64,000 bases of DNA from Frigoribacterium sp. PhB160. Lineage in GTDB: Bacteria > Actinomycetota > Actinomycetes > Actinomycetales > Microbacteriaceae. Position 1 is the stretch's first letter, and each line of letters opens with the position of its first letter. This document shows positions 2-63,197 of this stretch, piece after piece. The stretch covers positions 372,001 to 436,000 of the forward strand of contig NZ_RKIE01000001.1 of NCBI RefSeq assembly GCF_003751785.1, read 5' to 3'. The notes under the pieces were generated by a model. It searched no databases. It was not told where the DNA came from and saw only the letters and a program-made list of their open reading frames with translations. A program made the position numbers and the translations under genes.

Positions 2-361
2 ACGACCGACGCCGTCTTCGAGAGCGGCGTCGCGTCGATCGGGCGCGAGACCGGGCCCCTGCTGACGACCGCGGGCCGCACGGGCCAGCCCGTCCCGCCC
101 AGCTTCAAGGAGCGCTTCGCCGCCGCCTACGACACCCAGGTGCAGCGGTGGGTCGACGCCGCACGCCGCGGCACGATCGACGGACCGAGCGCCTGGGACG
201 GCTACCTCGCGAGCGTCGTCGCGACCGCCGGGGTCGAGGCGCAGGCGTCGGGGCGTCGGGTAGAGGTCGAGTACGCGATGGCCAAGCCGGCCTTCTACGA
301 GCTGGGGGCGGGCGCCTCGGCGGGCCGCGCCTCCTCGTCGCCCTCCGTGGTGGGGGCCTGA
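2..361 (+). CDS. Gfo/Idh/MocA oxidoreductase, probable inositol 2-dehydrogenase (C-terminal fragment)
   Basis: Only the last 119 residues are in the window; the frame is open from base 2 to the TGA at 359. SFKERFAAAYDTQVQRWV followed by GPSAWDGYLASV resembles the end of the substrate-binding domain of NAD-dependent myo-inositol 2-dehydrogenases (IolG), which oxidise inositol to scyllo-inosose in the cytoplasm. The nucleotide-binding half lies upstream, outside the window. The next gene, a sugar-phosphate-isomerase-type TIM barrel, starts 2 bp after this stop, so the two are surely co-transcribed. The extreme C terminus (Ala/Ser-rich, ASAGRASSSPSV) carries one copy of the recurrent decamer CCGCGCCTCC. 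Another sugar dehydrogenase of the same superfamily is possible. Confidence 0.6.
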   Translation, partial: TTDAVFESGVASIGRETGPLLTTAGRTGQPVPPSFKERFAAAYDTQVQRWVDAARRGTIDGPSAWDGYLASVVATAGVEAQASGRRVEVEYAMAKPAFYELGAGASAGRASSSPSVVGA

Positions 362-363
362 CG

Positions 364-1245
364 ATGGTGAAGATCGCCCTCGACCCGACGCCGCTGCACC
401 ACAGCCACTCGCTGCTCGAGCTGCCCGCGGCCGTGCACGCGCTCGGCTACGACCACCTGCAGCTGACCCCGCACCGCGACATGATCCCGTTCTTCCGGCA
501 CCCGAAGGCGGACGACGACCTCGTCGACGCCTTCGCTGCCGCGTGCCGCGACGCCGGGGTGCAGATCGCGTCGGTGCTGCCGGTGCTGCGCTGGTCGGGC
601 CCCGACGAGGAGGCGCGGCGTGCGGCGGTCAAGCACTGGAAGCGCGTCATCGAGATCACCCTGCGTCTCGGCGTGGGCGTGATCAACACCGAGTTCAGCG
701 GCCGGCCGGAGCTCCAGGAGGAGTCGGAGCGGCAGTTCTACTGGTCGATGGAGGAACTGCTGCCGATCATCGAGCGCGAGGGGCTGCAGGTGCTGATCGA
801 CCCGCACCCCGACGACTTCGTCGAGGACGGGCTCGAGGCGCTCCGGGTGATCCGCGGCCTCAACTCGCCGAACGTCGGGCTGGCGTACGTGGCCTGCCAC
901 ACGTTCCACTACGGCGGGAACACGGCCGAGATCATGGCCGCCGCGGGCCACCGGCTCGGGCTCGTCCACGTCGCCGACACCTTCGACCACCGCCGCTCGC
1001 ACGGGCTGCGCTACATCACGAACCCGCCCGGCAGCGCCGCGCGCGTGCACCAGCACCTCAAGATCGGCGACGGGGACGTCGACTGGGACGCCTTCTTCGG
1101 CGGGCTGGGTCGGCTGGGCTTCCTCGACCGCGACGACGCCGTGGTCGTGTCGAGCGTCTTCGCCGAGGACGAGGCGGTCGACGAGGTCAGCCGGTACCAG
1201 CTCGAGCAGATCCGGGCGCGCATCGCCGCCGCGCCCCGCGACTGA
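364..1245 (+). CDS. Sugar phosphate isomerase/epimerase family protein (TIM barrel)
   Basis: A 293-residue protein of the xylose-isomerase-like TIM-barrel superfamily (IolE/IolI type), which binds divalent metal and interconverts keto-sugars or inososes. It starts MVKIALDPTPLHHS. Expected metal ligands are visible: Glu in GVINTEFSG, Asp-His in VLIDPHPDDF, His in VACHTFHY and Asp/His in HVADTFDHRR, then the late HLKIGDGDVDWDAFF segment common to this family. The ATG at 364 follows the upstream stop by 2 bp. The upstream IolG-like gene and downstream tautomerase suggest a catabolic operon for inositol or a related polyol. The exact substrate cannot be read from the sequence. Confidence 0.8.
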   Translation: MVKIALDPTPLHHSHSLLELPAAVHALGYDHLQLTPHRDMIPFFRHPKADDDLVDAFAAACRDAGVQIASVLPVLRWSGPDEEARRAAVKHWKRVIEITLRLGVGVINTEFSGRPELQEESERQFYWSMEELLPIIEREGLQVLIDPHPDDFVEDGLEALRVIRGLNSPNVGLAYVACHTFHYGGNTAEIMAAAGHRLGLVHVADTFDHRRSHGLRYITNPPGSAARVHQHLKIGDGDVDWDAFFGGLGRLGFLDRDDAVVVSSVFAEDEAVDEVSRYQLEQIRARIAAAPRD

Positions 1246-1310: not shown

Positions 1311-1379
1311 ACCCGCACGTACCGTGACCCGGCGCGGGCTCGACCTCGCCCGCCGCCCCACCTGGAAGGACCCACCACC

Positions 1380-1796: not shown

Positions 1797-1817
1797 CCCG
1801 GTCGGGGCGGCGGAGGC

Positions 1818-1867: not shown

Positions 1868-2623
1868 CTACTTGTCGACGAGCGTGATCGAGAACGAGTA
1901 GAGGTCGGGTCGATAGCAGTGCGTCCCGACCTCGACGGCGCGGCCGGAGGCGTCGTACGCGGTGCGCGTCATGGTCAGCAGCGGGCCGCCCGCCTCGATC
2001 TCGAGCAGGTCGGCCTCGTCGTCGTGGGCCGCCCGGGCCCCGATCCGCTGCTTCGCCACCCGCATCGTGACCCCCTGGCCGCGCAGCAGCTGGTAGAGGC
2101 CCGAGGCCGCGAGGTCGTCGGTCGCGAACTGCGCCAGGTCGACCGGCAGGTAGTTCTCGAGCACCGCCACCGGCACGTCGTCGGCGAGGCGCAGCCGCCG
2201 GATGTGGTCGACGGGCGAGCCCGGCTCGATGCCGAGGGCCTCGGCCGTCTTCTCGTCGGCGTCCACGACCTCCCGCAGGAGGAGGCGCGTGGTCGGCGCC
2301 TGCCCGCTCTCCGCGAGGTCCTCGAACAGGCTGGTCAGCTCGACGTTGCGGGTCACGGGACCGTGGACGACCTGCGTGCCGATGCCGCGCCTCCGGACCA
2401 CGAGGCCCTTGTCGACGAGCTCCTGGATGGCGCGGCGGATGGTCGGCCGCGAGAGGCCGAGGCGCTCGCCGAGGCCGATCTCGTTCTCGAGGCGGGAGCC
2501 GGCCGGCAGCCGACCGCTCGTGATCTCGTTCTCGAGCCGGCTCGAGACCTGGTACCAGAGGGGCACGGGGCCGGTGCGGTCGAGGTCGGCGAAGAGATCG
2601 GCGGGGAGCGCGCTGACGGTCAT
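1868..2623 (-). CDS. GntR family transcriptional regulator (UTRA effector domain)
   Basis: A 251-residue HutC/GntR-type regulator. Residues about 18-85 form the winged helix-turn-helix: PVPLWYQVSSRLENEI, SGRLPAGSRL, ERLGLSRPTIRRAIQEL and GLVVRRRGIGTQV are all diagnostic. Residues about 105-245 match the UTRA ligand-binding domain (VPVAVLENYLP; RIGARAAHDDEADLL; PLLTMTRTAYDASGRAVE; CYRPDLYSF). The start ATG has GAAGG seven bases upstream. It lies 101 bp downstream of, and collinear with, the acyl-CoA ligase, and converges on the inositol-type operon, so it could regulate either. A TGTCG-N8-CGACA inverted repeat just upstream may be its own operator. Confidence 0.9.
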   Translation of the reverse strand: MTVSALPADLFADLDRTGPVPLWYQVSSRLENEITSGRLPAGSRLENEIGLGERLGLSRPTIRRAIQELVDKGLVVRRRGIGTQVVHGPVTRNVELTSLFEDLAESGQAPTTRLLLREVVDADEKTAEALGIEPGSPVDHIRRLRLADDVPVAVLENYLPVDLAQFATDDLAASGLYQLLRGQGVTMRVAKQRIGARAAHDDEADLLEIEAGGPLLTMTRTAYDASGRAVEVGTHCYRPDLYSFSITLVDK

Positions 2624-2724: not shown

Positions 2725-4185
2725 TCAGGGCGCGGGGAGGCGCGCCGCGCGCGCCGCCCAGGCGCGCCGGCTCGTCTTGCCCGCGTCGTCCCGCACGGGC
2801 TCGTGCACGAGGCGCACGGCCGCCGGTCGGCGGGCGGGGTCGAGCCGGGCCCGGGCCCAGGCGAGCACCTCCGCCGCGGTCACCACGGCCCCCGCGACGT
2901 CGACCACGGCCTCGATCCGCTGGCCCAGGTCGTCGTCGGCGACGCCGAACGCGACGGCTCCCCGGACGGCGGGGTGCGCCTCCAGCACGCGCTCGACCTC
3001 GGCCGGGTGCACGTTGACGCCTCCGCGCAGCACCACGTCGTCGGCGCGGTCGACGAGGTGCAGCCAGCCGTCGGCGTCGAGCCGCCCGAGGTCGCCGAGG
3101 GTGTCCCAGCCGTCGTCGGTCCGGGCCGACCGGCCGCCGAGGTAGCGGTAGGTCGGACCGCCCTCGCGTCGCAGCCAGACGTGGCCGACCTCGCCCGGGG
3201 GCAGGTCGACGCCGTCGGCCGAGCGCACCGCGACGGTCGTGCCGCGGGTCGCCCGCCCGACGCTGCCGGGGTGCTCGAGCCACTCGTCGCCGCGGATCGT
3301 CAGCACGCCGTTCGACTCCGTGCCCGCGTAGGCCTCGACCACGCGGTGCGCGCCGACCCACTCGAGGAAGCGGCGCTTGACCTCGGGCGCGCACGGTGCC
3401 CCGAGGTGCAGCACGGTCTCGAGCGACGACAGGTCGGCGGCGGCCCGGTCGGCCTCGGGCAGCCGCAGCAGGCGGTGCATCATCGTCGGCACGAGGAGGG
3501 CCCAGGTCACCCGGTGCTCGGCGATCGCCCGCAGCACCCGGCGCTCGTCGAACCGGGGCAGCAGCACCAGCTCGTGCCCCGTCAGCAGGCCGCGGAACGC
3601 ATAGGTGAAGGTCGCCGAGTGCGTCAGCGGCCCCGCGACGAGCTGCACCTGGCCGCGCGGCAGGAACGACGTGACCGCCACCGTCGGGTCGATGAGCGCG
3701 GGGGCGGCCGCCAGCACGACCTTCGGGCGGCCGGTCGACCCCGACGACGTGGGAGCCTTCCAGCTCGCGGCCCACGCGTCAGGCATCGGCGGGGCGTCGG
3801 GCGCGGCGGGGCCGGGCGCCCAGCCGGCCGGCACCCACGGCACCGAGGCGGAGGCCGACGGCGCCCCGACCACGAGCGCCGGCCGCGCCAGCGCCTCGAC
3901 CTCGGCCCGCTCGTCGGAGTCGAGCCCGGGCGAGACCGGCTGCGGCGTCGCCCCGCACCGCCAGATCGCCACGCAGGCGACGATCGTCTCGACCGTGTTC
4001 GGCAGGGTCACCGTCACCAGCGAGTCCTGCCCGACGCCGAGGTCGCGGTAGCCCCGCGCCAGGGCCCAGGAGGCGCGGTCCAGCTCCGAGGCCGTCAGCG
4101 TCCCGGCGTCGTCGCGCGCGACCACGCGGCCCGGGTCGGCCTCAGCGAGACCCGTGACGACTCGGGAGAAGGACTGCCTCGCCAT
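2725..4185 (-). CDS. Acyl-CoA synthetase / AMP-dependent ligase (ANL superfamily)
   Basis: A 486-residue ANL-family enzyme, expected to adenylate a carboxylic acid with ATP and transfer it to CoA or another thiol. Visible core motifs: the P-loop TSSGSTGRPKVV, the A5 motif YAGTES, the A7 motif DTLGDLGRLDADGW, the hinge VDRADDVVLRGGVNVHPAEVE and the C-terminal catalytic lysine region DAGKTSRRAW. The first 160 residues are shorter than in typical 500-550-residue members. The ATG at 4185 lies inside the end of the glycosyltransferase gene (44-bp overlap), so it is the last gene of the minus-strand arm of the nitrilase cluster and is translationally coupled. Its acid substrate is unknown. Confidence 0.85.
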   Translation of the reverse strand: MARQSFSRVVTGLAEADPGRVVARDDAGTLTASELDRASWALARGYRDLGVGQDSLVTVTLPNTVETIVACVAIWRCGATPQPVSPGLDSDERAEVEALARPALVVGAPSASASVPWVPAGWAPGPAAPDAPPMPDAWAASWKAPTSSGSTGRPKVVLAAAPALIDPTVAVTSFLPRGQVQLVAGPLTHSATFTYAFRGLLTGHELVLLPRFDERRVLRAIAEHRVTWALLVPTMMHRLLRLPEADRAAADLSSLETVLHLGAPCAPEVKRRFLEWVGAHRVVEAYAGTESNGVLTIRGDEWLEHPGSVGRATRGTTVAVRSADGVDLPPGEVGHVWLRREGGPTYRYLGGRSARTDDGWDTLGDLGRLDADGWLHLVDRADDVVLRGGVNVHPAEVERVLEAHPAVRGAVAFGVADDDLGQRIEAVVDVAGAVVTAAEVLAWARARLDPARRPAAVRLVHEPVRDDAGKTSRRAWAARAARLPAP

Positions 4186-7452: not shown

Positions 7453-7838
7453 GAGGCCGCCCCCGGTCCCGACGCAGCCGACACCGACGCAGCCGGCACC
7501 ACGGAGGCCTGCACCGACGAGGACGCCGGAGGCGCGGCCGCGGTCGCGGGGACCGGCAGCGGCGGGTGCATCTCGACGACGCGGACCGCGCCTCCGGCGT
7601 GCCTCGCGGCCGCGGCGACGATGTCGGCCTCCTGCTGCAGCGCCGAGGTGCAGGCGAAGCCGTAGGCGGCGGCGACGCGCTCGCCGGCGAGGCGCAGGGC
7701 GGTCGTCGAGCGCTCGACGAACTCGGCGAGCGGGTACTCGGCGCCCGTGACGAGGTGGTCGTGCACCACGAGGCTGGGCGAGTAGCAGCTCGTCTCGGTG
7801 CCGTCGGGCCAGCGCACCCGGAAGGTCATCTCAGGCAC
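7449..7838 (-). CDS. MSMEG_0570 family nitrogen starvation response protein
   Basis: A 129-residue protein. The first 95 residues, MPEMTFRVRWPDGTETSCYS then HLVTGAEYPLAEFVERSTTAL and ERVAAAYGFACTSALQQ, match the small MSMEG_0570 family of unknown function, a fixed member of nitrilase clusters (NitG-like). The last 35 residues are an Ala/Pro/Ser-rich tail that looks like an extension. GTG is taken as start because AGAGGAG lies 8-10 bases before it; it overlaps the nitrilase stop by 8 bp. A downstream ATG (residue 4) is an alternative. Conserved cysteines (CYS and FACTS) might bind metal or a cofactor, but this is inference. Confidence 0.8.
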   Translation of the reverse strand: MPEMTFRVRWPDGTETSCYSPSLVVHDHLVTGAEYPLAEFVERSTTALRLAGERVAAAYGFACTSALQQEADIVAAAARHAGGAVRVVEMHPPLPVPATAAAPPASSSVQASVVPAASVSAASGPGAAS

Positions 7839-9541: not shown

Positions 9542-10687
9542 GTGACGATCACGAACGAGCCGCAGGCGCCCGCGCGCGGCCTCGCCGGCATCTCGAACGG
9601 GGGCGCGGCCCCGTCCGCGCGGACGCCCGCCGACCTGCTGTCGACCCGCGTCGACGTCGCCATCCGCGGCATCCGCGTCGCCGCGCCGGTCCACCGAGAA
9701 GGAGGCGCGGGGCCGAGCGACGACGGACACGTCCTGTTCCAGGGACTCCAGACCGCGGTCCCGCAGAGCCAGGACAGCCCGTACCTCGTCGACGACGGCA
9801 GGCTGCTGCTCGACGGCGAGGACACCGGCATCGAGGTCTCGGCCGTCGACCGGCCGCGCTTCTACGACCTGGCGACGGCCGACGGCGTGCCCTACGAGCA
9901 GATCGCGCGCCTCCACGGGGCGAAGGTGCTGGCGACGACCGTCGTCCAGACCTGCGTCCGGTACGACGTCGCCGAGCGCTGCCGCTTCTGCTCGATCGAG
10001 GAGTCGCTCAACGCCGGCGCGACCGTCGCCGTCAAGACGCCGTCGATGATCGCCGAGGTGGCCGAGGCCGCCTGGCGCCTGGACGGCGTCGAGCAGATGG
10101 TGATGACGACCGGCACGTCGAACGGCCGCGACCGCGGCGCCACCCACCTGGCGCGCTGCGTCCGGGCGATCAAGGCGGTCGTGCCCGGGCTCGAGATCCA
10201 GGTGCAGTGCGAGCCGCCGGGCGACCTCGCGACGATCACCGACCTGTACGAGGCGGGGGCGCGCTCGATCGGCATCCACGTCGAGTCCACGGACGACGAC
10301 GTGCGGCGCCGCTGGATGCCGGGCAAGTCGCGCGTGTCGATGGACGAGTACCGGGCCGCGTGGCGCGAGGCCGTCCGCGTCTTCGGCCGCAACCAGGTGT
10401 CGACGTACCTGCTCGTCGGCCTCGGCGAGGACCCGGACGAGATGGTCGCCGGCGCCCAGGAGCTCATCGACATGGGCGTCTACCCGTTCATCGTGCCGTT
10501 CCGCCCGCTGCGGGGCACGCTGGCGACCGACGTCGACCACGTGCCTGCGCCGCACGGCTCGGTGCTGCACGACATCACGGCCCGCGTCTCGGAGGCCCTC
10601 GTCGCCGCCGGCATGAAGGGGACCGACCAGAAGGCAGGATGCGCGGCGTGCGGCGCCTGCTCCGCGCTGCAGACGGCGGGGGGCTGA
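9542..10687 (+). CDS. Radical SAM protein, MSMEG_0568 family
   Basis: A 381-residue radical SAM enzyme of the Nit1C cluster (NitD-like). The [4Fe-4S] cysteines appear to be C138, C147 and C150 in TCVRYDVAERCRFCS, a C-x8-C-x2-C spacing rather than the usual C-x3-C-x2-C. Downstream barrel motifs include MVMTTGTSNGRDRG, LEIQVQCEPPGD, SIGIHVESTDD and TYLLVGLGEDPDEM. The C terminus has C367-x2-C370-x2-C373, possibly ligating a second cluster. It should generate a 5'-deoxyadenosyl radical to build or modify the nitrile precursor or its scaffold; substrate unknown. The GTG start has little ribosome-binding sequence, consistent with coupling to the preceding gene. Confidence 0.88.
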   Translation: MTITNEPQAPARGLAGISNGGAAPSARTPADLLSTRVDVAIRGIRVAAPVHREGGAGPSDDGHVLFQGLQTAVPQSQDSPYLVDDGRLLLDGEDTGIEVSAVDRPRFYDLATADGVPYEQIARLHGAKVLATTVVQTCVRYDVAERCRFCSIEESLNAGATVAVKTPSMIAEVAEAAWRLDGVEQMVMTTGTSNGRDRGATHLARCVRAIKAVVPGLEIQVQCEPPGDLATITDLYEAGARSIGIHVESTDDDVRRRWMPGKSRVSMDEYRAAWREAVRVFGRNQVSTYLLVGLGEDPDEMVAGAQELIDMGVYPFIVPFRPLRGTLATDVDHVPAPHGSVLHDITARVSEALVAAGMKGTDQKAGCAACGACSALQTAGG

Positions 10688-10688: not shown

Positions 10689-12218
10689 GTGGCGCTGCTC
10701 GACGTGCCGGCGCTGATGGGCCCCCGGGTGGTCGCGGGGGCGCCCGGCGGCCTCGTCGTCGCGGTGCCCTCGGGTGCGGTGCCCGCGGGTGCGCCGCCCG
10801 CCGGCGCGGTGCTCGTCGGCGTGGCCGAGGGAGCTGAGATCGACGCCTACCGACGGCTGCGGCAGGCCGCCTTCGTCGACGAGCAGGGCCTGTTCGCCCG
10901 CACCGACCGCGACGACCTCGACGACGACCCGCGCACGGTCGTCCTCGTCGCCCGGGTCGGCACCGCGGTCGTCGGAGGGGTGCGGCTCGCGCCCGTGGGC
11001 GAGCGCGACATCGGCTGGTGGACGGGGTCGCGGCTGGTCGTCGCCCCCGCGGCGCGGACGGCGGGCGGTGCCGGTGGCGCTGCCGGGGCCGACGCGGCCG
11101 TCGGCGTCGGGACGGCCCTCGTGCGGGCCGCCGCGGCGCTCGCCGAGCAGCTCGGGGTGATCCGGTTCGACGCGACCGTGCAGGCGCGGTCGGCGGTGCT
11201 CTTCCGGCGGCTCGGGTGGCAGCAGACCGGCACCGCGGTCGTCGGCGGGGTCGACCACGTGCGCATGCGCTGGCCGGTCGACCGGTACCAGCGACTCGTC
11301 GACGCGACGAAGGCCGTGCTCGAGGCCGTCCTCGAGCCGCACACCGCCTGGGCCGACTCGCCCGCGGGCTCGCTCGGCGGGCCCGGCTGGGTCGGCGACG
11401 ACGGGGCGCCGGTGCCCGGCACCGACCTGGTCGCGGCGTGCGACGCCATCCTGCCGTCGATGGTCGAGCGCGACCCGGAGTGGGCCGGCTGGTGCGGCGT
11501 GCTCGTCAACGTCAACGACCTCAGCGCGATGGGCGCGACCCCGGTCGGCCTGCTCGACGCGGTCGCCGGTCGCGACGCCGCCTCGGTGCGCCGCGTGCTC
11601 TCGGGGGTGAGGCGGGGAGCCGAGGCGTGGGGCGTGCCCCTGCTCGGCGGCCACACGCAGGTCGGCGTGCCGGCGGCGCTCAGCGTCACGGCGCTCGGCC
11701 GCACGAGCAGCCCGGTGCCGGGCGGCGGCGGTCGGTACGGCGACGCGCTCAGCCTCACGGTCGACGTGAGCGGCTCGTGGCGCGAGGGCCACCACGGCAC
11801 GCAGTGGAACTCGACGGAGGGGCGCCGCTCGGACGAGCTCCGCGACCTCGCGGGCACGGTCGCCCGCGCGCGGCCGGCCGCCGCGAAGGACGTCAGCATG
11901 GCCGGCGTCGTCGGCACGGTGGGCATGCTCGCCGAGGCGAGCGGCTACGGCGCCGTCGTCGACGTCGCCTCGGTGCCCCGGCCCGGAGGCGCGGGGCGAG
12001 CCGGCGCGGACGTCACGACGGGCGACTGGCTGGGCTGCTTCCCGGGGTTCGGCATGGTCACGGCCGACCGGCCGGGCGACTCGCGCATGCACTCCCCGTA
12101 CGCCGTGACGGCCGAGGTCGGTGGGCTCACCCTCGAGCGCGGCGTGCTGCTGCGCTGGCCGGACGGGGCGACGACGCGGGCCGTCGGCGGCGGCGTGACG
12201 GGGCTCGGGCCGGCGTGA
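10689..12218 (+). CDS. Fused GNAT N-acetyltransferase / AIR synthase-like protein (sll0786 + sll0787)
   Basis: A 509-residue two-domain protein. Residues about 1-195 are a GNAT acetyltransferase of the MSMEG_0567/sll0786 family (YRRLRQAAFVDEQGLF; GTALVRAAAALAEQLG; RLGWQQTG). Residues about 205-509 are an AIR-synthase/PurM-like domain of the sll0787 family (GDDGAPVPGTDLVAACDAIL; VNVNDLSAMGATPVGLLDAV; AKDVSMAGVVGTVGMLAEA; WLGCFPGFGMV), with the metal/ATP-binding Asp-rich and glycine loops. The two are separate genes in Synechocystis. GTG starts one base after the radical SAM stop. It would activate an amide or formamidine oxygen with ATP and acylate an amine; the product is not known. Confidence 0.87.
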   Translation: MALLDVPALMGPRVVAGAPGGLVVAVPSGAVPAGAPPAGAVLVGVAEGAEIDAYRRLRQAAFVDEQGLFARTDRDDLDDDPRTVVLVARVGTAVVGGVRLAPVGERDIGWWTGSRLVVAPAARTAGGAGGAAGADAAVGVGTALVRAAAALAEQLGVIRFDATVQARSAVLFRRLGWQQTGTAVVGGVDHVRMRWPVDRYQRLVDATKAVLEAVLEPHTAWADSPAGSLGGPGWVGDDGAPVPGTDLVAACDAILPSMVERDPEWAGWCGVLVNVNDLSAMGATPVGLLDAVAGRDAASVRRVLSGVRRGAEAWGVPLLGGHTQVGVPAALSVTALGRTSSPVPGGGGRYGDALSLTVDVSGSWREGHHGTQWNSTEGRRSDELRDLAGTVARARPAAAKDVSMAGVVGTVGMLAEASGYGAVVDVASVPRPGGAGRAGADVTTGDWLGCFPGFGMVTADRPGDSRMHSPYAVTAEVGGLTLERGVLLRWPDGATTRAVGGGVTGLGPA

Positions 12219-12245: not shown

Positions 12246-13211
12246 ATGACCACCGAGACCGCCGATCCGACGACAGCCGTCGTCCACGTTCTGCATGACA
12301 ACGAGGAGTGGCTGCCGCCGCTGCTCGCCGCCCTCGACGCCGCCGGGGTGCCGCACGCCGAGCACCTGCTGGACGGGAGCTCCTTCGACCTGGCGGCCGC
12401 GCCTCCGGCCGGGGTGTTCTGGTCGCGCCTCAGCGCGTCGGCGGCGACGCGTGGCCGGGCCACGGCGAAGGAGGTCGCGCGCGCGACCCTCCGCTGGGCC
12501 GAGCGGCACGGTCGCCGCGTCGTCAACGGCAGCGCCGTCGTCGAGCTCGAGGTCAGCAAGGTCGCGCAGTACCTCGCCCTCGCGGCCCACGGGTTCGACG
12601 TGCCGCGCACGGTCGCCGTCTTCGGCACGGCCGACCTCAAGGAGCGGGCGCGCGAGCTGCCGACGCCGTTCATCACGAAGCACGACCAGGGCGGCAAGGG
12701 CATCGGCGTGCGGCTGTTCGACGACCACGAATCGTTCGACGCCTACGTCGACGGACCCGACTTCGAGCCGCCCGCGAACGGCACGACGCTGCTGCAGGAG
12801 CACCTGCAGGCCACCGAGCCCTTCGTCACCCGGGCCGAGTTCGTCGGCGGCCGATTCGTCTACGCCGTGCGGGTCGACACCTCGGCCGGCAGCTTCGAGC
12901 TGTGCCCCGCCGACGCGTGCGTCGTGCCCGCCGGCGCCGACCCGGCCTCGTGGGCGCCGTTCGCGGTCCGCGGGTCGGTGACGGCGGAGCACCCGCTCGT
13001 GCAGCGGCTCGAGGCGTTCCTCGCGGCCGAGGGCATCGAGGTCGCGGGCGTCGAGTTCATCGAGACGGCCGACGGCCGGACCGTGCCGTACGACGTCAAC
13101 ACGAACTCGAACTACAACCCCGACGTCGAGCGCGAGTCGGCGGTGTCGGCCGCTGCCGTGCTCGCCGCGTGGCTCGGCGGCGAGCTCGCGGCGGAGCGCG
13201 CCCGCGCCTGA
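12246..13211 (+). CDS. ATP-grasp (RimK-like) ligase
   Basis: A 321-residue ATP-grasp enzyme. ATP-binding features: VVNGSAVVELEVSKVAQYLAL, the lysine in TPFITKHDQGGKGIGVRLF (glycine-rich loop), the acidic LLQEHLQATEPFVTRAEFVG strand and the metal site VEFIETADG...YDVNTNSNYN near residues 268-288. RimK-like members join an amine to an acyl phosphate. It starts 27 bp after the GNAT-AIRS gene, following a CAGGAT-N6-ATG arrangement that could be a weak leaderless promoter. It is the last gene of the plus-strand arm and not one of the core Nit1C genes I know, so it may add an amino acid to the cluster product. Confidence 0.85.
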   Translation: MTTETADPTTAVVHVLHDNEEWLPPLLAALDAAGVPHAEHLLDGSSFDLAAAPPAGVFWSRLSASAATRGRATAKEVARATLRWAERHGRRVVNGSAVVELEVSKVAQYLALAAHGFDVPRTVAVFGTADLKERARELPTPFITKHDQGGKGIGVRLFDDHESFDAYVDGPDFEPPANGTTLLQEHLQATEPFVTRAEFVGGRFVYAVRVDTSAGSFELCPADACVVPAGADPASWAPFAVRGSVTAEHPLVQRLEAFLAAEGIEVAGVEFIETADGRTVPYDVNTNSNYNPDVERESAVSAAAVLAAWLGGELAAERARA

Positions 13212-33976: not shown

Positions 33977-33985
33977 CCGCGCCTC

Positions 33986-38368: not shown

Positions 38369-38406
38369 AGGAGGCGCGGGGTGCGTGACCGCACACCGCG
38401 CCTCCT
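38369..38406 (-). terminator. Decamer-pair hairpin after TerC gene
   Basis: Two inverted GGAGGCGCGG decamers (38370 and 38396) form a 16-bp stem with one mismatch and a short loop, 11 bases after the TerC stop codon. One of four such hairpins in the window. Confidence 0.7.
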
Positions 38407-43444: not shown

Positions 43445-43660
43445 CCGGGGCCGGTCCCGCCGCCCCTGCCGGGACCGTCCGGGTGCTGCGTCCCCGACCC
43501 GCGCCTCCCCGGCTCTCAGCTCTCGGAACGGGATTCACCCGGCTCGAGCCCGAGCTCGGGTGCGGGGGTGCGGCGCTCGGGCTCGGGTTCACCGGTGTCG
43601 CGGGCGCGCGGCGTGGGGGCGCGACGGCCCGGGCAGGCGGGCTCGGTGTAGGCCGGACGG

Positions 43661-44494: not shown

Positions 44495-44535
44495 GGGGAG
44501 GCGCGGGGTGCGCGGGAGCCGCACCGCGCCTCCCC
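44495..44535 (-). terminator. Decamer-pair hairpin after SDR gene
   Basis: Inverted GGAGGCGCGG copies at 44497 and 44524 extend to GGGGAGGCGCGG/CCGCGCCTCCCC arms, 12 bases beyond the SDR stop. Confidence 0.7.
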
Positions 44536-46067: not shown

Positions 46068-46104
46068 GGAGGCGCGGTGCCGGCCTGGCCGACACCGCGC
46101 CTCC
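46068..46104 (-). terminator. Decamer-pair hairpin after hxlA
   Basis: Inverted GGAGGCGCGG copies at 46068 and 46095 extend through GTGCCGGCC to an 18-bp stem with one mismatch, ending 12 bases from the hxlA stop. Confidence 0.72.
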
Positions 46105-47528: not shown

Positions 47529-48416
47529 ATGACCGAGCCGAGCCGCGCCTCCTCGCCCGCCCTCGACCACCGGGCGGAGCCGGGCGGTCTGCCGCACGAC
47601 GCCGCCGCGCGCGCCCTCGCCTCCGAGCACACCCGCGCCCTCGCCGCGCTCGTCGACCGCCAGGCCGTGACGCTCGAGTCGCTGCTCGCGGTGCTGCGCT
47701 CGGATCGCCTCGACGACCGCGCGGCGCGCGTCGAGGCGATCGACGTGGCGGCGGGGGCCATCGTCGAGCTGCGGACCGGCACCGACCGGCGACGCGACGG
47801 CCAGCTCGAGCCGGTGGTCGGCGCGTTCGCGCGGCTGCGCAACGACCTGCGGCCGCTCGTGCGGTTCGGCGACCTCGACGTGCAGTTCGTCGAGCCGCCC
47901 GCGACCGGTCGGGCGCTGCCCGGCGACGTCGCGCACGCGGCCCGGGCGGTCGTGCGGAACGCGGTGCTGACGCTGGTCGACCGGGGCTCGGCCCGCCGGG
48001 TGCGGATCCAGTGGGACTGCGACGGGCTGAACCTGCTCATCGGGATCCGCGACGACGGCGACGGCGGCCTGAGCGCCCGTGACGACGCCCTGCGGCCGAT
48101 CGCGGAGCAGGTGACGGCCGTGGCCGGCGAGCTGACCGTGTCGTCGACGTCGGGCTGGGGCTCGGAACTCGCGGTGCGGATGCCGCTCGACCCGCCCCCG
48201 GCGCCCGAGTCGTGGCAGGGAGGCACGACTCTGAGCGAGCGGGAGCGGGAGGTGCTGCGGCTGGTGGTCGGCGGGTCGCGGAACCGCGACATCGCCGGCG
48301 AGCTGGGCATCAGCGAGAACACGGTGAAGTTCCATGTCTCTCGACTGCTGCGCAAGCTCGGCGCCCGGAGTCGCACCGAGCTGGCAGGGCTCGCGGGCGC
48401 CGTCGGCGGGGCGTAG
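47529..48416 (+). CDS. LuxR-type regulator with histidine-kinase-like ATPase domain
   Basis: A 295-residue protein. The C-terminal 65 residues are a clear LuxR/GerE HTH (TLSEREREVLRLVVGGSRN; RDIAGELGISENTVKFHVSR; LLRKLGARSRTEL). Residues about 20-210 are not a receiver: they resemble a dimerisation helix plus GHKL-type ATPase (HAARAVVRNAVLTLVDRG like an N box; LLIGIRDDGDGGLS like a G1 box; GWGSELAVRMPL like a G2 end). So it looks like a kinase ATPase module fused to a DNA-binding domain. It is divergent from hxlBA and probably regulates formaldehyde assimilation. No signal-input domain is visible. Confidence 0.78.
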   Translation: MTEPSRASSPALDHRAEPGGLPHDAAARALASEHTRALAALVDRQAVTLESLLAVLRSDRLDDRAARVEAIDVAAGAIVELRTGTDRRRDGQLEPVVGAFARLRNDLRPLVRFGDLDVQFVEPPATGRALPGDVAHAARAVVRNAVLTLVDRGSARRVRIQWDCDGLNLLIGIRDDGDGGLSARDDALRPIAEQVTAVAGELTVSSTSGWGSELAVRMPLDPPPAPESWQGGTTLSEREREVLRLVVGGSRNRDIAGELGISENTVKFHVSRLLRKLGARSRTELAGLAGAVGGA

Positions 48417-48819: not shown

Positions 48820-49890
48820 TCAGCGCGCGAGGAAGGTCGCGTCGTGCTGACCTGCCGCGCCGACGACCGTGACCGCCCAGCCGCGCTCGTCGCCGGTCCC
48901 CGCGCTCGTCAGGCGGGCCGTGAACGACTCGCCCGTCTCGGCGGCGAGGAGGGGGGCGACCCAGGCGGCCACCTCGTCGCCGACGGCCTCCGGCACCTCG
49001 GTGGAGGAGTCGTCGAGCAGCAGCACGCTCACGCCGCGGAGGCGGGCGGCCCGCGCCTCCTCGGCGACGGGTCCGACCGCGAACGAGCGGGCCCGGAGCG
49101 CGTCGCGGAGCTCGGCCTCGACGGCCTCGTACTCCCGTCGCTGCCGGGGGTCGGTGGGGCTCGCCGTCGTGATGCGCTCGAGGGCGGGCCGGGCGACGCG
49201 CACGAGGCGGTCGGCCTCGCGCCGTCGTTCGTCCGCGCGCGCCGACTCGGCCTCGACCTCGGCCCAGCGGGTGCGCTCGGAGGCGTGCAGGCGGTCGAGG
49301 CGGGCGCCGAGCCGGGCGATTCCGACGGCGAAGGCGGTGCCGATCGCGAGGGTGCCGACGTGTCGCACGACGAGTCCGGCCCCCGCCGCCGCGCCCGGCC
49401 CGGCGAGCTCGGCCCAGCCGACGACGATCGCGACGACCACGAGCATGCCGACCCAGGCGAGGCGGCTGCGGCCCCGGACCGCGACCCCGGTGAGCGAGAA
49501 GGTGACGGCGCCGAGCGCCCAGGCGGAGTACCCCGCGGGCTCGCCCGTCGTGGGGATGCTGTCGAGCGTCGAGAGCACCACCGCCGCGGAGGCGCCCACC
49601 ACGACCCACGCACCCGCCCGCGTCAGGCGCCGGTCGCCTCGCCGCACGCAGACGACGGCGCTGAGGGCGACGAGCACGAGCGCCAGCCACTGCACCGGGC
49701 TGCGCGCCGCCCCGGCCGACATCACGGCGAGCACGACCTGCGTCAGGACGACGACGGCGGCCACGAGGGCGGCGGCGGGCATCGGCAGGGTGAGCGGACC
49801 GGGCGCCGTCGAGCCCCCGCGCGGCCGAGCCCCCTCGACGACCGCGGTGCCCTCGGCGGCCGCGCCGCCGGCCCGCTGTTCGCCGCTCAC
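48820..49890 (-). CDS. Membrane protein, degenerate histidine-kinase-like
   Basis: A 356-residue protein. About six helices (residues 35-185, for example MPAAALVAAVVVLTQVVLAV and VGMLVVVAIVVGWAEL) are followed by a charged coiled segment (ERTRWAEVEAESARADERRR) and a 110-residue domain ending DERGWAVTVVGAAGQHDATF. The layout copies the adjacent sensor kinase, but I see no phospho-acceptor His motif, N box or glycine boxes, so it should not phosphorylate. GTG overlaps the kinase stop (GTGA). It may act as accessory or decoy partner of the kinase. Confidence 0.7.
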   Translation of the reverse strand: MSGEQRAGGAAAEGTAVVEGARPRGGSTAPGPLTLPMPAAALVAAVVVLTQVVLAVMSAGAARSPVQWLALVLVALSAVVCVRRGDRRLTRAGAWVVVGASAAVVLSTLDSIPTTGEPAGYSAWALGAVTFSLTGVAVRGRSRLAWVGMLVVVAIVVGWAELAGPGAAAGAGLVVRHVGTLAIGTAFAVGIARLGARLDRLHASERTRWAEVEAESARADERRREADRLVRVARPALERITTASPTDPRQRREYEAVEAELRDALRARSFAVGPVAEEARAARLRGVSVLLLDDSSTEVPEAVGDEVAAWVAPLLAAETGESFTARLTSAGTGDERGWAVTVVGAAGQHDATFLAR

Positions 49891-52709: not shown

Positions 52710-52752
52710 GGAGGCGCGGGCGGGCTCCTCGGGGGAGCCGGCCCGCGCCTCC
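52710..52752 (-). terminator. Decamer-pair hairpin after siderophore-binding-protein gene
   Basis: GGAGGCGCGG at 52710 pairs with its inverse at 52743; inner GGCTCC/GGAGCC arms extend the stem to nearly 19 bp around a four-base loop. It ends 21 bases past the stop codon. Confidence 0.75.
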
Positions 52753-53907: not shown

Positions 53908-54792
53908 CTACGCGTCCCGCGGCACGACCAGCGGCGCTCCGCTCGTCGGGTCGGGGATGACGAGCGCGTCGAGGTCGAACGCGTCGCGGAGCACCTCGGG
54001 CGTGAGCACGTCCCACGGCGCACCGTCGCCGAGCACGCGGCCGCGTCCGATCACGACGAGCCGGTCGGAGTAGCGCGCCGCCAGGGTCAGGTCGTGCAGC
54101 ACCATGACGACCGTCGCGCCGCGCGAGCGGTTGATCGACCGCACGAGCCGCAGGATGTCGAGCTGGTGGCTGAGGTCGAGGAACGTCGTCGGCTCGTCGA
54201 GCAGGATCGTCTCCGCCTGCTGGGCCAGCACGAGCGCCAGCCAGGCCCGTTGCAGCTGACCGCCCGACAACGTCCCGACGTCCCGCGCCGCGAGCTCGGC
54301 CAGGCCGGTGGCCGCGAGGGCATCGTCGACGGCGGAGGCGTCGGCCGCGGTCCAGGGCGTGAGGAGGCTCTGGTGCGGGTGCCGCCCCCGCGACACGAGG
54401 TCGCGCACGGTCGTCGCCGACGGGGTCAGCGGCTTCTGCGGCAGGATCGCCAGCCGTCGCGCGACCGCCTTGCCCGAGAGCGACCGCACCGGCGCGCCGT
54501 CGATCTCCACGTGTCCGGCGGTCGGTGCGAGCAGTCGCCCGAACGCCTTGAGGATCGTCGACTTCCCGCTCCCGTTCGCCCCGATCAAGGTCGTCACCGT
54601 CCCGCTCGCCACCTCGAGGTCGAGCCCCTCGAGGACCACGGCGCGCTCGTACGACAGGGTGACGCCCCGGGCTGCGAGCGCCGGAGGCGCGGCGCCGACG
54701 AGCGGGTCGCCGGCGGTCTCGGGGGCGGGGCCCGCGCCTCCCGGGCTCGGGGCGGTCGCGGTGCGGGTGGTCTCGTCGGTCGTGCCGGTCAT
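53908..54792 (-). CDS. Siderophore ABC transporter ATP-binding protein
   Basis: A 294-residue FecE/FepC-type ATPase. After a 35-residue polar leader: Walker A LIGANGSGKSTILKAFG, RRLAILPQKPLTPSATTVRD, signature VGTLSGGQLQRAWLALVLAQ, Walker B TILLDEPTTFLDLSHQLDIL and switch His in MVLHDLTLAARYSD. It powers import of ferric siderophore through the two upstream-encoded permeases. The ATG overlaps the permease stop by four bases. Two inverted decamers (54683 and 54732) lie within its leader codons. Last gene of the permease-permease-ATPase operon. Confidence 0.93.
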   Translation of the reverse strand: MTGTTDETTRTATAPSPGGAGPAPETAGDPLVGAAPPALAARGVTLSYERAVVLEGLDLEVASGTVTTLIGANGSGKSTILKAFGRLLAPTAGHVEIDGAPVRSLSGKAVARRLAILPQKPLTPSATTVRDLVSRGRHPHQSLLTPWTAADASAVDDALAATGLAELAARDVGTLSGGQLQRAWLALVLAQQAETILLDEPTTFLDLSHQLDILRLVRSINRSRGATVVMVLHDLTLAARYSDRLVVIGRGRVLGDGAPWDVLTPEVLRDAFDLDALVIPDPTSGAPLVVPRDA

Positions 54793-55925
54793 GCCGATCG
54801 ATCCTCTCGTCGGCCGCGGATCAGCAGCCAGATCAGGTAGGGCGCGCCGATGATCGCCGTGAGGATGCCGACCGGCACCTCGCTCGGCAGCACCGCCCGG
54901 GTCACGAGGTCGGCCGCGACGACGATGAAGGCGCCCGTCACGGCCGAGGCGAGCAGGGGCGGGCGCCCGGTGCCGGTGAGGCGCCGGGCGAGCTGGGGGG
55001 CGACGAACGCGACGAACTCGAGGGGCCCGCTGGCCGACACCGCGGCCGCGGTCAGCAGCACCGCGCAGGCGAGCACGACGATGCGGTGGCGCTGCACCGC
55101 GACGCCGAGCCCCGTCGACAGGTCGTCGCCGAGCTGGCTCACCTCGAGCGCGGACGACTGGGTGGCCGCGAGCGGTCCGATCACGGCGAGCACGACCAGC
55201 GCCGGCCAGACGCTCGCCCACGAGATGCCCGACAGGCTGCCCACGAGCCACTGCGTCGCGGCGGCCGCCTCGGTGATCTGCGCGCGGGCGATCATGTAGG
55301 TCGTGAGGCCGGTCAGGGTCGCGGTCGCCCCGATGCCGACGAGGATCAGCCGGTAGCTGTCGACCCCGCCGCGCCAGGAGAGCCCGTAGACGACGACCGA
55401 GGTGACGAGGGCGCCGACGACGGCCGCGACGGGCACGCCGACGCTCAGCAGGCCGCCCGTCACGGCGTAGCTGCCGCCCGCGAGCACGATCGCCGAGACG
55501 GCGCCGAGGCCCGCGCCCGACGTGACGCCGAGGATGTCGGGGGTCGCCAGCGGGTTCCGCGCGAAGGTCTGGGTGAGCGCGCCGGCGAGGCCGAGGCATG
55601 CCCCGACCACGAGGGCGCCGGCCACGCGGGGCAGGCGCAGGTCGACGACGATCAGCTCCTGCGCGGGGGTGCCGAGCCCGACGAGCGTCCGCACGACGTC
55701 GCCGAGGCCGAGCGACGACGAGCCGGCGGCGACGCCGACGAGCGACACCAGCACGACGACCACGACGGAGGCGCCGGTCGCCACGACGAGACGGGTGCGG
55801 CGGGTGCGTCCCGGCCCCCGTCGGTCGGCGGGCGGGGTCGGGGCGGCGACCCGCGCCTCCTTCTGTCGTGGCGTCGGCGTCGGCGGCGTCTGCTGCGGCT
55901 GCGGCTGGGTGGTCGAGGCGCTCAC
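54789..55925 (-). CDS. FecCD-family siderophore ABC permease
   Basis: A 378-residue iron-siderophore permease (FecCD/BtuC family) with about ten helices after a 50-residue Pro/Gln/Arg-rich cytoplasmic leader (QPQPQQTPPTPTPRQKEARV). Family motifs: LRLPRVAGALVVGACLGLAG, QTFARNPLATPDILGVTSGA, GPLEFVAFVAPQLARRLTG and the end LTAIIGAPYLIWLLIRGRR. GTG overlaps the other permease's stop (GTGA). Forms the channel with the paralogous permease at 55922. Confidence 0.92.
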   Translation of the reverse strand: MSASTTQPQPQQTPPTPTPRQKEARVAAPTPPADRRGPGRTRRTRLVVATGASVVVVVLVSLVGVAAGSSSLGLGDVVRTLVGLGTPAQELIVVDLRLPRVAGALVVGACLGLAGALTQTFARNPLATPDILGVTSGAGLGAVSAIVLAGGSYAVTGGLLSVGVPVAAVVGALVTSVVVYGLSWRGGVDSYRLILVGIGATATLTGLTTYMIARAQITEAAAATQWLVGSLSGISWASVWPALVVLAVIGPLAATQSSALEVSQLGDDLSTGLGVAVQRHRIVVLACAVLLTAAAVSASGPLEFVAFVAPQLARRLTGTGRPPLLASAVTGAFIVVAADLVTRAVLPSEVPVGILTAIIGAPYLIWLLIRGRREDRSA

Positions 55926-57037: not shown

Positions 57038-57041
57038 CGGG

Positions 57042-59495: not shown

Positions 59496-60485
59496 ATGAA
59501 GTTCTCACGCACGATCCCCGTGGCCGCCGTCGTGGCCGCCACGACGCTGGCGCTCGCCGGCTGCTCCGTCCCCGGCGAGGCCGGCACCGCGGTCAAGACG
59601 GTCGCCGCCGACGACGCGCTCACCATCGGCTTCAGCCAGGCGACCCAGCAGAGCCCCTTCTACGTGTCGCTCAGCGACGCGGCGTCGGCCCGCGCCGAGG
59701 AGAACGGCGACGAGCTGCTCATGGTCGACGCGAACGGCGACGTCACGAAGCAGAACAACGACGTGCAGGACCTCATCACCCGCGGCGTCGACGTGCTGAT
59801 CATCAACCCGGTCGACCCCAAGGGCATCGCACCGGCGCTGGCGGCGGCGGAGGCGGCCGGCATCCAGGTCGTCACGGTCGACCGCCCCGTCGAGAGCGGC
59901 GCGGTGTCGTTCGTCGGCCGTGACAACGAGGCGATGGGCAAGCTCGTCGGCGACCAGCTCGTGGCGACGCTGGGCGACGCCGGCGGCACGGTCGTCGAGA
60001 TCCAGGGCGACGCCGGAGGCGCGGTGGCGGCGGCGAGGAGCGCCGGCTTCCACGACGCGGTCGACGCCGTCCCGAGCATCGAGGTCGTCGAGGGCCCCTA
60101 CGCGAACTACGTGCGCAGCGAGGCCGTCACGGCCATGCAGGACCTGCTGCAGGCGAACCCCGACGTGAAGGCGGTCTACGCCCACAACGACGACATGGCC
60201 CTCGGGGCGATGCAGGTGCTCGGCGAGAACGGCCGCAGCGACGTGAAGGTGTTCGGCGTCGACGGCCTCATGGAGGCGGTCGAGGCGATCGCCGACGGCG
60301 ACCAGTACGTGGCGACCGCCGTCAACGACCCCGGGTCGGAGGGGGCGTCCGCCGTGGACACCGCCAGCTCGGTGGCCCGCGGGGAGGCGGTCGACGAGTT
60401 CGTCGACGCCGGCACCGGACTCATCAGCAAGGACAACGCGTCGACCCTGGTCGGCACCACCACGTTCGCGGAGGCGACCAAGTGA
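59496..60485 (+). CDS. Sugar ABC transporter substrate-binding lipoprotein (RbsB-like)
   Basis: A 329-residue periplasmic-binding protein. Signal MKFSRTIPVAAVVAATTLAL with lipobox LAGC. Core: LTIGFSQATQQSPFYVSLSD, ITRGVDVLIINPVDPKGIAP, AAGIQVVTVDRPVESGAVSF, VGRDNEAMGKLVGDQLV, KAVYAHNDDMALGAMQVLGE and VFGVDGLMEAVEAIADG are typical of ribose-type binding proteins. No ATPase or permease gene follows: instead a dehydrogenase, kinase and regulator. It may share a transporter encoded elsewhere. Strong ribosome site CAGGAGGAA. Regulated by the palindrome upstream, I infer. Confidence 0.9.
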   Translation: MKFSRTIPVAAVVAATTLALAGCSVPGEAGTAVKTVAADDALTIGFSQATQQSPFYVSLSDAASARAEENGDELLMVDANGDVTKQNNDVQDLITRGVDVLIINPVDPKGIAPALAAAEAAGIQVVTVDRPVESGAVSFVGRDNEAMGKLVGDQLVATLGDAGGTVVEIQGDAGGAVAAARSAGFHDAVDAVPSIEVVEGPYANYVRSEAVTAMQDLLQANPDVKAVYAHNDDMALGAMQVLGENGRSDVKVFGVDGLMEAVEAIADGDQYVATAVNDPGSEGASAVDTASSVARGEAVDEFVDAGTGLISKDNASTLVGTTTFAEATK

Positions 60486-61594: not shown

Positions 61595-61595
61595 C

Positions 61596-63197
61596 GTGGG
61601 CGTCCTCCTCAGCATCGACCTCGGCACCGAGGGCGCACGGGTCGGCGCCTTCACCGACGACGGGACGTCGCTCGGCTCGGTCCACCGTCCGTACCGGACC
61701 TCCTTCCCCCGACCCGGGTGGGCCGAGCAGGACCCGGAGGAGTGGTGGTCGGCGTTCGTCGACGCCGCCCGCACCCTGCTGTCGACCGACGCGTGCCGTA
61801 CCGCCGGGCCCGTGGTCGCCCTCGCCTCCGCGACGACGGCCTCCACGGTGGCCGTCGTCGACGAGGCCGGCACGCCGCTCCGTCCGGCGATCCTCTGGAT
61901 GGACTCCCGCGCCTCCGCGCAGTCCCGCCGCACCGCCGACCTCGCGGCGGAGCACCCGGTGCTCGCCTGGTCCGGCGGCTCGGACGCCGCCGAGTGGCTC
62001 GTGCCCAAGGCGATGTGGCTGCGCGAGAACGAGCCCGAGACGTACGAGCGCGCCGCGCGCGTCGTCGAGGCGATCGACTACCTCACCTTCCGGCTCACTG
62101 GTCGCTGGGTGGGGTCGCAGATGAACGCGGTCTGCAAGTACAACTACGACCCGATCGCCCGACGCTTCCCCGTCGAGCTCTACGCCGCCCTCGGCGTCGA
62201 GGGCCTCGCCGACAAGCTGCCGGACGCGGTCGTGCCCGTGGGCTCGGTCGCGGGCGAGCTGACGCGTGGGGCGGCCCACGAGCTCGGGCTGGAGCCCGGC
62301 GCTCCGGTCGCCGTGGGAGGGATCGACGCGCACGTGTCGCTGCTCGCCTGCGGCGGCGAGTGCGAGGGTCTCGTCTCGCTCGTCTCGGGCACGTCGTCGG
62401 CGATCGTCGCCGAGGTCGACGCCCCCGTCGCCACGACCGAGGTGTGGGGGCCGTACCCGCAGGCCCTCCGCACCTCGAAGTGGCTCGTCGAGGGCGGCCA
62501 GGTGACGAGCGGCTCCGTCCTGAAATGGGTCGGCGAGGGCATCATGGGCGTCGCCCGCGACGACCTGCCGGGCCTCATCCAGGGCGCCTCGGCCGTCGAC
62601 CCCGAGGTGCACGGCCTCCGCGCCCTCGACTTCTTCATGGGCAACCGGACGCCCTACCGCGACGCACGCCTCCGCGGCGCCGTCGTCGGGCTGACCCTGG
62701 GCACGACCCGGGAAGAGCTCTACCGGGCGGCCGTCGAGGCCGTCGCCTGCGGCACGCGCGGCGTCGTCGACTCCTTCGAACGCGCCGGGGTCTCGTGCGA
62801 CCGGCTCGTCTTCTCGGGCGGCATCGAGAAGAACGCGCTGTGGCAGCAGGTCACGGTCGACGTGCTGGGCCGGGAGGCCGAGATCGTCGACGGCGACAAC
62901 CTCACCCTCCGCGCCTGCGCCGTCATCGGCGCGGTCGGCGCCGGCCTGGTCGGCAGCCTCGACGAGGGCGCGACCCTCTTCGCTCCGCGCACCCGGGTGC
63001 TCACGCCGGACTCGGCGCGGCACGAGGTCTACCGCGAGACGTACGACGACTACGTGGAGCTCGTCGGCGCGCTCACCCCCGTCATGCACGCGACGGCGGC
63101 CCGCCAGGAGGCGCGTCGCACCGCCGCGGCGTCGCTGCCGTCCGACGCCCGCTCGCTCCTCGTCCCCGGGGTCCGGGGCAGCGCGGCGCTCCGATGA
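61596..63197 (+). CDS. FGGY-family carbohydrate kinase
   Basis: A 533-residue sugar kinase. N-terminal ATP/sugar motifs LLSIDLGTEGARVGAFTDDG, VVALASATTASTVAVVD, RPAILWMDSRASAQSRRTAD and GGIDAHVSLLACGGECEG (catalytic Asp); C-terminal FSGGIEKNALWQQVTVDVLG and CAVIGAVGAGLVGSL. FGGY_N and FGGY_C halves are full length. It would phosphorylate a ketose or ketopentose from the dehydrogenase. GTG is two bases after the dehydrogenase stop. The N-terminal GTEGAR replaces the common GTxSxR. Confidence 0.9.
   Translation: MGVLLSIDLGTEGARVGAFTDDGTSLGSVHRPYRTSFPRPGWAEQDPEEWWSAFVDAARTLLSTDACRTAGPVVALASATTASTVAVVDEAGTPLRPAILWMDSRASAQSRRTADLAAEHPVLAWSGGSDAAEWLVPKAMWLRENEPETYERAARVVEAIDYLTFRLTGRWVGSQMNAVCKYNYDPIARRFPVELYAALGVEGLADKLPDAVVPVGSVAGELTRGAAHELGLEPGAPVAVGGIDAHVSLLACGGECEGLVSLVSGTSSAIVAEVDAPVATTEVWGPYPQALRTSKWLVEGGQVTSGSVLKWVGEGIMGVARDDLPGLIQGASAVDPEVHGLRALDFFMGNRTPYRDARLRGAVVGLTLGTTREELYRAAVEAVACGTRGVVDSFERAGVSCDRLVFSGGIEKNALWQQVTVDVLGREAEIVDGDNLTLRACAVIGAVGAGLVGSLDEGATLFAPRTRVLTPDSARHEVYRETYDDYVELVGALTPVMHATAARQEARRTAAASLPSDARSLLVPGVRGSAALR

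Follow-up and report, generated by a model that had tools for sequence, protein, structure and literature searches.

A decamer iterated throughout the genomes of Frigoribacterium and its likeness to DNA uptake sequences

The decamer and its inverted pairs in the 64 kb window

We analyzed the decamer GGAGGCGCGG in a 64,000 bp stretch of Frigoribacterium sp. PhB160 (C1:372001-436000, here referred to as the window) and in the genome that holds it (working label G000). The window contained 36 exact copies, 16 on the plus strand and 20 on the minus strand, whereas dinucleotide shuffles contained a mean of 2.47 and a maximum of 6. In an order-4 Markov model it was the most over-represented 10-mer of the window (36 observed vs. 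1.9 expected). The original prediction had claimed at least 35 exact copies and a composition expectation of about two. All 35 listed positions were real, one further copy was found (19490, minus strand) and the shuffles gave a similar expectation. The over-representation as such is confirmed.

Genes were called by a simple codon-model script of our own instead of an established caller. On this basis 12 copies were intergenic. The sense copies were located in frame 0 (n = 8), frame 2 (n = 2) and frame 1 (n = 1), the antisense copies in frame 2 (n = 8), frame 1 (n = 4) and frame 0 (n = 1), respectively. Five sites that had been described as reading GGA-GGC-GCG do lie in that frame, but the use of a single frame did not hold as other frames are occupied too. 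Near copies with altered ends, which had been noted as well, were recovered with the endings GC (n = 9) and GT (n = 6).

Four inverted pairs of the decamer were predicted to fold into hairpins (-34.8 to -43.1 kcal/mol, z -4.3 to -6.8), located 11-20 bases past gene ends. An Rfam search of the window gave no match. All copies are listed in Table 1.

Table 1. Exact decamer copies and inverted decamer pairs, numbered from the first base of the window
Feature	Position	Strand	Context
Motif copy	325..334	-	antisense frame 2 in gene 2-361+
Motif copy	609..618	+	sense frame 2 in gene 364-1245+
Motif copy	2385..2394	-	sense frame 1 in gene 1868-2623-
Motif copy	4069..4078	+	intergenic (own gene caller)
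Motif copy	7528..7537	+	antisense frame 1 in gene 7449-7829-
Motif copy	7586..7595	-	sense frame 0 in gene 7449-7829-
Motif copy	9701..9710	+	sense frame 0 (GGA GGC GCG)
Motif copy	11985..11994	+	sense frame 0
Motif copy	12397..12406	-	antisense frame 1
Motif copy	16866..16875	-	antisense frame 2
Motif copy	19490..19499	-	antisense frame 0; absent from the original list
Motif copy	21602..21611	-	antisense frame 2
Motif copy	23339..23348	+	sense frame 0
Motif copy	29048..29057	-	antisense frame 2
Motif copy	31942..31951	+	antisense frame 1
Motif copy	33977..33986	-	stop end of gene 33986-35017-, overlap 1 base
Inverted pair, predicted hairpin	38370..38405		11 bases past end of terC (38417-39460-; TerC by Pfam); -35.2 kcal/mol, z -5.9
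Motif copy	41736..41745	-	sense frame 0
Motif copy	43409..43418	+	antisense frame 2
Motif copy	43499..43508	-	intergenic
Motif copy	44093..44102	+	sense frame 0
Inverted pair, predicted hairpin	44497..44533		13 bases past end of gene 44547-45284-; -34.8 kcal/mol, z -4.3
Inverted pair, predicted hairpin	46068..46104		11 bases past end of gene 46116-46739-; -39.0 kcal/mol, z -6.8
Motif copy	47352..47361	+	antisense frame 2
Motif copy	47543..47552	-	antisense frame 2
Motif copy	49051..49060	-	sense frame 2
Inverted pair, predicted hairpin	52710..52752		20 bases past end of gene 52773-53789-; -43.1 kcal/mol, z -5.2
Motif copy	54683..54692	+	antisense frame 1
Motif copy	54732..54741	-	sense frame 0
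Motif copy	55851..55860	-	intergenic
Motif copy	60015..60024	+	sense frame 0
Motif copy	61907..61916	-	antisense frame 2

Occurrence, shape and placement in the genus

The genome G000 (3,338,185 bases, 4 contigs) carried 674 plus and 704 minus copies, 1,378 in total, compared to 63 and 85 copies (148) of the reversed word. The motif is therefore not confined to the window. Each of the 16 Frigoribacterium genomes contained between 842 and 1,725 copies, distributed almost equally over the two strands, and the reversed word occurred 41-148 times. Among 199 genomes of the Microbacteriaceae only eight exceeded 100 copies while also reaching twice the reversed-word control or more. These were 4/4 genomes drawn from Frigoribacterium, 3/3 from the genus g32 and 1/3 from g55 (g and G numbers are working labels for genera and genomes; g1 is Frigoribacterium).

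Furthermore, 80 loci were matched by the TerC protein of the window (here named loci). Eleven of them belong to Frigoribacterium (89-92% identity), with Clavibacter following at 86-89%. The decamer density was 3.5-14.5 per 10 kb in all 11 Frigoribacterium loci and at most 0.95 per 10 kb in the other 69 (Clavibacter, Rathayibacter, Cryobacterium, Arthrobacter and others).

Under a codon null, in which the synonymous codons of 484 kb of G000 were redrawn, 156 coding copies were observed vs. 14.6 expected (10.7x). Thus, a codon-corrected model, an explanation considered in the original prediction, does not account for the counts. All six frames were enriched, most strongly those requiring CCT or GGA codons (20 vs. 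0.1 and 40 vs. 1.4). The same null gave only 0.4-1.8x in Clavibacter (3 vs. 5.8), Rathayibacter (6 vs. 3.4) and Arthrobacter (1 vs. 2.8). The null is imperfect, with the unrelated word CGAGCAGCAC reaching about 5x (62 vs. 12.2), and in the scans of other genera (see below) a pooled codon table was substituted for G145, G163, G047 and G121. That GGAGGCGCGG is a genome-wide and genus-wide iterated word is a sound result.

The word was sharply defined in G206, whose 1,725 copies were the highest number of any genome. Here, it lengthens to AGGAGGCGCGG (98 vs. 0.8 expected in 320 kb), and single mismatches at letters 1-8 of the decamer were found in 0-4 copies each, compared to 98 full 11-mers. The last two letters were more tolerant. 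An A preceded the decamer in 73% of the copies in G206 and in 32% in G000, so the word varies inside the genus. Apart from this A in some species and weak preferences after the word, the flanks of the Frigoribacterium copies carried little information; a longer mobile repeat was rejected on these grounds. In alignments of genus members, whose pairs are not mutually independent, the word was kept at 59-77% of the sites in four bands of 80-96% identity, compared to 14-50% for other 10-mers with nine of ten letters G or C.

Within the G000 sample 156 of the 221 copies lay inside genes, and copies numbered 3.5 per 10 kb of coding sequence, compared to 15.3 per 10 kb of noncoding or partly noncoding sequence. 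Facing pairs of the 9-letter form, 10-45 bp apart, were found 13 times in G000 vs. about 2.1 expected, back-to-back pairs 4 times and tandem pairs not at all. When G000, G206, G035 and the named loci were pooled (homologous loci included), antisense copies outnumbered sense copies inside genes (200 vs. 136, p 0.0006). The antisense copies crowded at gene ends (quintiles 69, 40, 26, 20 and 45, depending on our own gene starts) while the sense copies did not (21, 37, 28, 24 and 26). Flanks of 80 bases contained 123 copies on the 3' side and 60 on the 5' side (counts not normalised for length). No replication polarity was found, neither genome-wide (674 vs. 704) nor by local GC skew (113 copies on the G-rich and 108 on the C-rich strand among the 221), and a replication-polar signal was rejected.

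A distinct arrangement was present in genus g32. Here, the decamer occupied both arms of intergenic palindromes of about 48 bases of the type GACGGACTGGAGGCGCGGTGC...GCACCGCGCCTCCAGTCCGTC (L142-L147, L163-L167), which we treated as a hairpin form of the word. The sampled copies of this genus were noncoding or partly so in 17/22 (G105), 10/15 (G031) and 1/5 (G163) cases.

Putative islands were defined as five plus-strand gaps of more than 20 kb among the first 100 plus copies of G000. They were about 24-29 kb in size, lay in the first 475 kb of C1 and comprised 118 kb of examined DNA. As they had been chosen for their lack of plus copies, the minus strand is independent of the selection: it carried 5 copies vs. 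24.9 expected (P 1.5e-6). Most gaps were poorer in GC (0.65-0.71) than the G000 sample (0.738). According to labels read from protein beginnings, they contained an exopolysaccharide-like (EPS-like) cluster, a prophage-like stretch and a site-specific-integrase-like gene. The prophage-like stretch without decamers (G000:C1:160-174 kb, L207 ~8400 to L208 ~1930) encodes a tape-measure protein resembling those of Arthrobacter phages.

Related words in the family and competence genes

The word SGGATGCSS reached at least three times the count of its reversed form in 147 of the 199 Microbacteriaceae genomes (median 5.1, forward share 0.4998), compared to 6 of 111 genomes outside the family, which represent 19 further families of the order and had a median of 1.75 and a maximum of 3.3. 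The baseline outside the family exceeds 1 because the reversed-word control is not codon-matched. Frigoribacterium itself did not share the excess, and GGATGC reached 1.05-1.40x there under the codon null. Ratios below 2 were found in 25 of the 199 genomes. Frigoribacterium, g5 and g47, each with words of its own, belong to the low genomes, as do g51, in which none was found, g45, g15, g17 and small genomes; alternative words were sought in g1, g5, g47 and g51. A k-mer scan of 40 kb showed no outstanding word in g51. In two genomes of this genus (G121, G051) SGGATGCSS was depleted to about 0.5-0.6 of the reversed form, unlike most of the family.

Further GGA-containing words were obtained from scans of unrelated stretches (40-120 kb per genome, 320 kb for G206) with the codon null and from whole-genome counts. 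The word CGGATGCG was enriched in g58 (94 vs. 11-15 in three runs), g29 (56 vs. 9.5) and g49 (57 vs. 15), CGGATGCCGC in g37 (21 vs. 1.7), GGTGGAGGCG in G055 (21 vs. 2.8) and GCAGGATC in g47 (29 vs. 3.8). The words of g48 were GGATGCGG and GGATGCCG, those of g5 GCAGGATGCC and GCAGGAGCCG. In the GGATGC genera the orientation bias was present (531 vs. 404) and the terminus bias absent.

The figures for Clavibacter, Microbacterium, Cryobacterium, Pseudoclavibacter, Rathayibacter, Leucobacter and Arthrobacter stem from terC loci, which are mutually homologous, so conserved gene words contaminate their k-mer scan. Microbacterium carried GGATGCCG (119 vs. 24, codon null), and Clavibacter (L042-L045, L047, L048) the palindrome CGGATCCG (136 coding copies vs. 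11 expected); for palindromes, both strands entered the observed as well as the expected counts. GGATGC reached 2.1x in Cryobacterium, 2.4x in Pseudoclavibacter and 1.0x in the Leucobacter and Arthrobacter loci. For a phage comparison, Microbacterium chromosome loci gave 129 vs. 25.7 for GGATGCCG, and the Microbacterium phage Min1 no excess of it (5 vs. 4.9) and 16 vs. 6.6 for CGGATCCG. With two phages considered, this evidence decides little.

Competence-type genes are present in G000, their activity being predicted. A comEC gene, found in 195/199 family genomes, adjoins a comEA-like gene that was named from its position. Additionally, a type IV pilus locus comprises pilB, pilT, pilC, a pilin, minor pilins, a prepilin peptidase and pilM-N-O-like genes (assignments by sequence; T2SSE by Pfam). 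A strong PilB match (E below 1e-100) was obtained in 101/199 family genomes, and by this cut-off PilB was absent in 98/199. The median GGATGC ratio was 6.1 with and 4.3 without PilB (p 3e-5, a statistic that ignores phylogeny). Pilus presence is a weak predictor of the word, with clear exceptions described below. The large minor pilin (L186:6500-7906) shared only 41-49% identity between G000 and three genus members, compared to 89% for PilB, and thus evolves fast. A C5 methylase (PF00145) was rejected as a partner of the decamer, as it was found in 8 of the 16 genus genomes and not in G000; the search covered this family and did not extend to the N4/N6 types.

Comparison with known iterated words

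We tentatively favour the reading that GGAGGCGCGG is an uptake-sequence-like self-DNA tag of Frigoribacterium and a dialect of a family-wide Microbacteriaceae system, although our confidence stays somewhat below even. The placement and the dialect pattern fit uptake sequences better than the other known iterated words considered here. The uptake-sequence likeness proposed in the original prediction is in line with the codon-aware excess, the strand balance, the hairpins after genes, the gene-end bias, the scarcity in islands and the clade words. The likeness to HIP1 (highly iterated palindrome 1) of cyanobacteria, proposed alongside, fits less well because GGAGGCGCGG is non-palindromic and no C5 methylase is conserved across the genus.

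According to excerpts of a report on the DNA uptake sequences (DUS) of the Neisseriaceae (Frye 2013, PMC3630211), these are likewise about 10-12 letters long, occur in very many copies inside and between genes and form inverted pairs at terminators, such pairs being reported in all DUS-dialect genomes. Each clade has its own dialect around a common core, which is CTG in the eight Neisseriaceae dialects and GGA here. In contrast, the hosts considered here are Gram-positive with a hypothetical uptake and receptor, the GGATGC form needs no pilus, and facing pairs were clear only in G000 and g32. Several Neisseriaceae dialects also reach 2,245-5,918 copies (same excerpts), higher than here. The uptake signal sequences (USS) of the Pasteurellaceae share genome-wide iteration, a reading-frame orientation bias and a bias towards gene termini, as described in parts of three reports (PMC2346458; PMC1626085, PMC12616744). 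In the first of these, the orientation bias was found in all uptake-sequence genomes and the terminus bias in all Pasteurellaceae (PMC2346458). The USS differ from the decamer in the word itself, and here the envelope is Gram-positive and competence only predicted.

We infer that natural transformation may occur in these bacteria, with a receptor binding the word and uptake bias maintaining it. In such a mechanism the competence machinery would include a DNA receptor, in the envelope or at the surface, with a preference for fragments bearing the word, and DNA from closely related cells would enter and recombine more frequently. This bias would accumulate and maintain the word over time, and the word would settle mostly at the cheapest places, namely gene ends, intergenic gaps and terminator hairpins. 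Extended to the family, self-DNA recognition with genus dialects that bias transformation to kin, and with a receptor not necessarily on a type IV pilus, is a possibility that we regard with some doubt. With the same reservation, the dialects would then be GGATGC-type words in most genera, AGGAGGCGCGG in Frigoribacterium, GCAGGATSC-type words in g5 and g47 and CGGATCCG in Clavibacter. Since several pilus-negative genera keep GGATGC, a receptor on this type IV pilus can hardly be the general answer. It could be located on another pilus or be ComEA. The transformation of Micrococcus luteus uses Flp pili, as stated in excerpts of PMC6370729.

A number of observations weigh against an uptake tag. 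In the named Frigoribacterium loci, which are mutually homologous, a few core single mismatches were 5-8x enriched, so the word is less sharp there, and every pair orientation exceeded expectation with facing pairs not being special. Facing pairs were not clearly enriched in the GGATGC genera either, unlike in DUS genomes. At 76-80% identity the word was kept at none of 8 aligned sites, and the sole testable site of the window (33977) was not kept in two relatives. The spacing of copies was random without extra evenness. The six-letter word GGATGC was only modestly enriched in coding sequences of eight sampled genera (1.4-3.3x), which were chosen for a minor-pilin match; the count over 199 genomes is free of that choice. 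The comEC gene also occurs where no word was found, for instance in g51. Eight PilB-negative genomes had GGATGC ratios above 8 (G017 and G106 being single-contig assemblies, G022 and G054 fragmented drafts), which means that this type IV pilus is not required. The large minor pilin, tried as a marker gene and rejected, matched 58/199 genomes with no tie to the word. Furthermore, the Clavibacter palindrome CGGATCCG and its phage suit another mechanism: in phage CMP1 GGATCC was enriched about 2x (54 vs. 25, both strands) and CGGATCCG was present 8 times vs. 2.5 expected. Finally, excerpts of PMC12040237 describe uptake as sequence-independent in almost every competent species save Neisseria and Haemophilus.

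Another explanation, which we consider rather unlikely, is a HIP1-like word maintained by something other than uptake, for example through a DNA methyltransferase, through repair or through a site-specific DNA-binding protein of high abundance, with a recognition that drifts between genera. It would suit a family-wide pattern that is not bound to the type IV pilus, the random spacing and especially Clavibacter, whose word is palindromic like HIP1 and whose phage shares the GGATCC excess. However, GGAGGCGCGG is not its own reverse complement, and PF00145 shows the patchy distribution given above. To our knowledge, hairpin and gene-end placement as seen for GGAGGCGCGG is not expected of HIP1. 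HIP1 is a very frequent short word across many genomes of its group with an open mechanism, and in this respect similar; it differs by being a palindrome linked to orphan methylases (excerpts of PMC4390886).

A signal for recombination or chromosome maintenance, such as a Chi-like site, a word guiding FtsK or a nucleoid-protein site, is less probable still. Copy number and sharpness would be suitable, and the words differ among genera. Chi and the FtsK orienting polar sequences (KOPS) are short non-palindromic iterated words, as is GGAGGCGCGG. However, FtsK words are strongly polar and Chi is usually polar, whereas the decamer lacked orientation with replication and SGGATGCSS had an even forward share over the 199 genomes. 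This objection spares a nucleoid-protein site, which needs no polarity.

We regard it as very unlikely that the copies are stems of transcription terminators sharing their sequence by chance. The four hairpins of the window follow gene ends, and the g32 word lies mostly outside genes in palindromes (G163 excepted); but most copies of the G000 sample are inside genes, on both strands and in all frames, and a scan covering 18 kb of the window yielded no intrinsic terminators with T runs. An artefact of composition, codon usage or amino acid usage can practically be dismissed, since shuffles, Markov model and the codon-aware null, imperfect as it is, were all exceeded, the three other genera showed no comparable coding excess, and only eight family genomes, including all four of the genus, passed the copy-number threshold.

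Sequence-biased DNA uptake is treated as a Neisseria and Haemophilus exception in excerpts of PMC12040237. If the uptake reading is true, genome self-tagging would also have arisen in a Gram-positive family with many dialects. Dialects could then be compared with fast-evolving envelope proteins in order to test for the receptor, and natural transformation would have to be counted among the forces acting on common bacteria of soil and leaves. If it fails, a clade-specific, family-wide iterated word still wants explanation, like HIP1. None of the matches listed in the open literature, which excludes most subscription papers and all bioRxiv preprints, dealt with this word or with uptake words in Microbacteriaceae. 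A word search of a Frigoribacterium genome paper (PMC12823222) gave no mention of competence, pili or motifs. This is consistent with the earlier statement that no such motif has been described in the family, which had, however, overlooked the related words across the whole family.

Two minor observations were made in the named loci. The contig of L062 is titled Vibrio cholerae strain 35D, but it encodes, at a GC content of 70%, a TerC that shares 78% identity with the Frigoribacterium query, and it is probably a contaminant or mislabelled. In the 20 mutually homologous Arthrobacter terC loci the word CGACGGCG was found 326 times in coding sequence vs. 124 expected and is perhaps a further iterated word in the Micrococcaceae.

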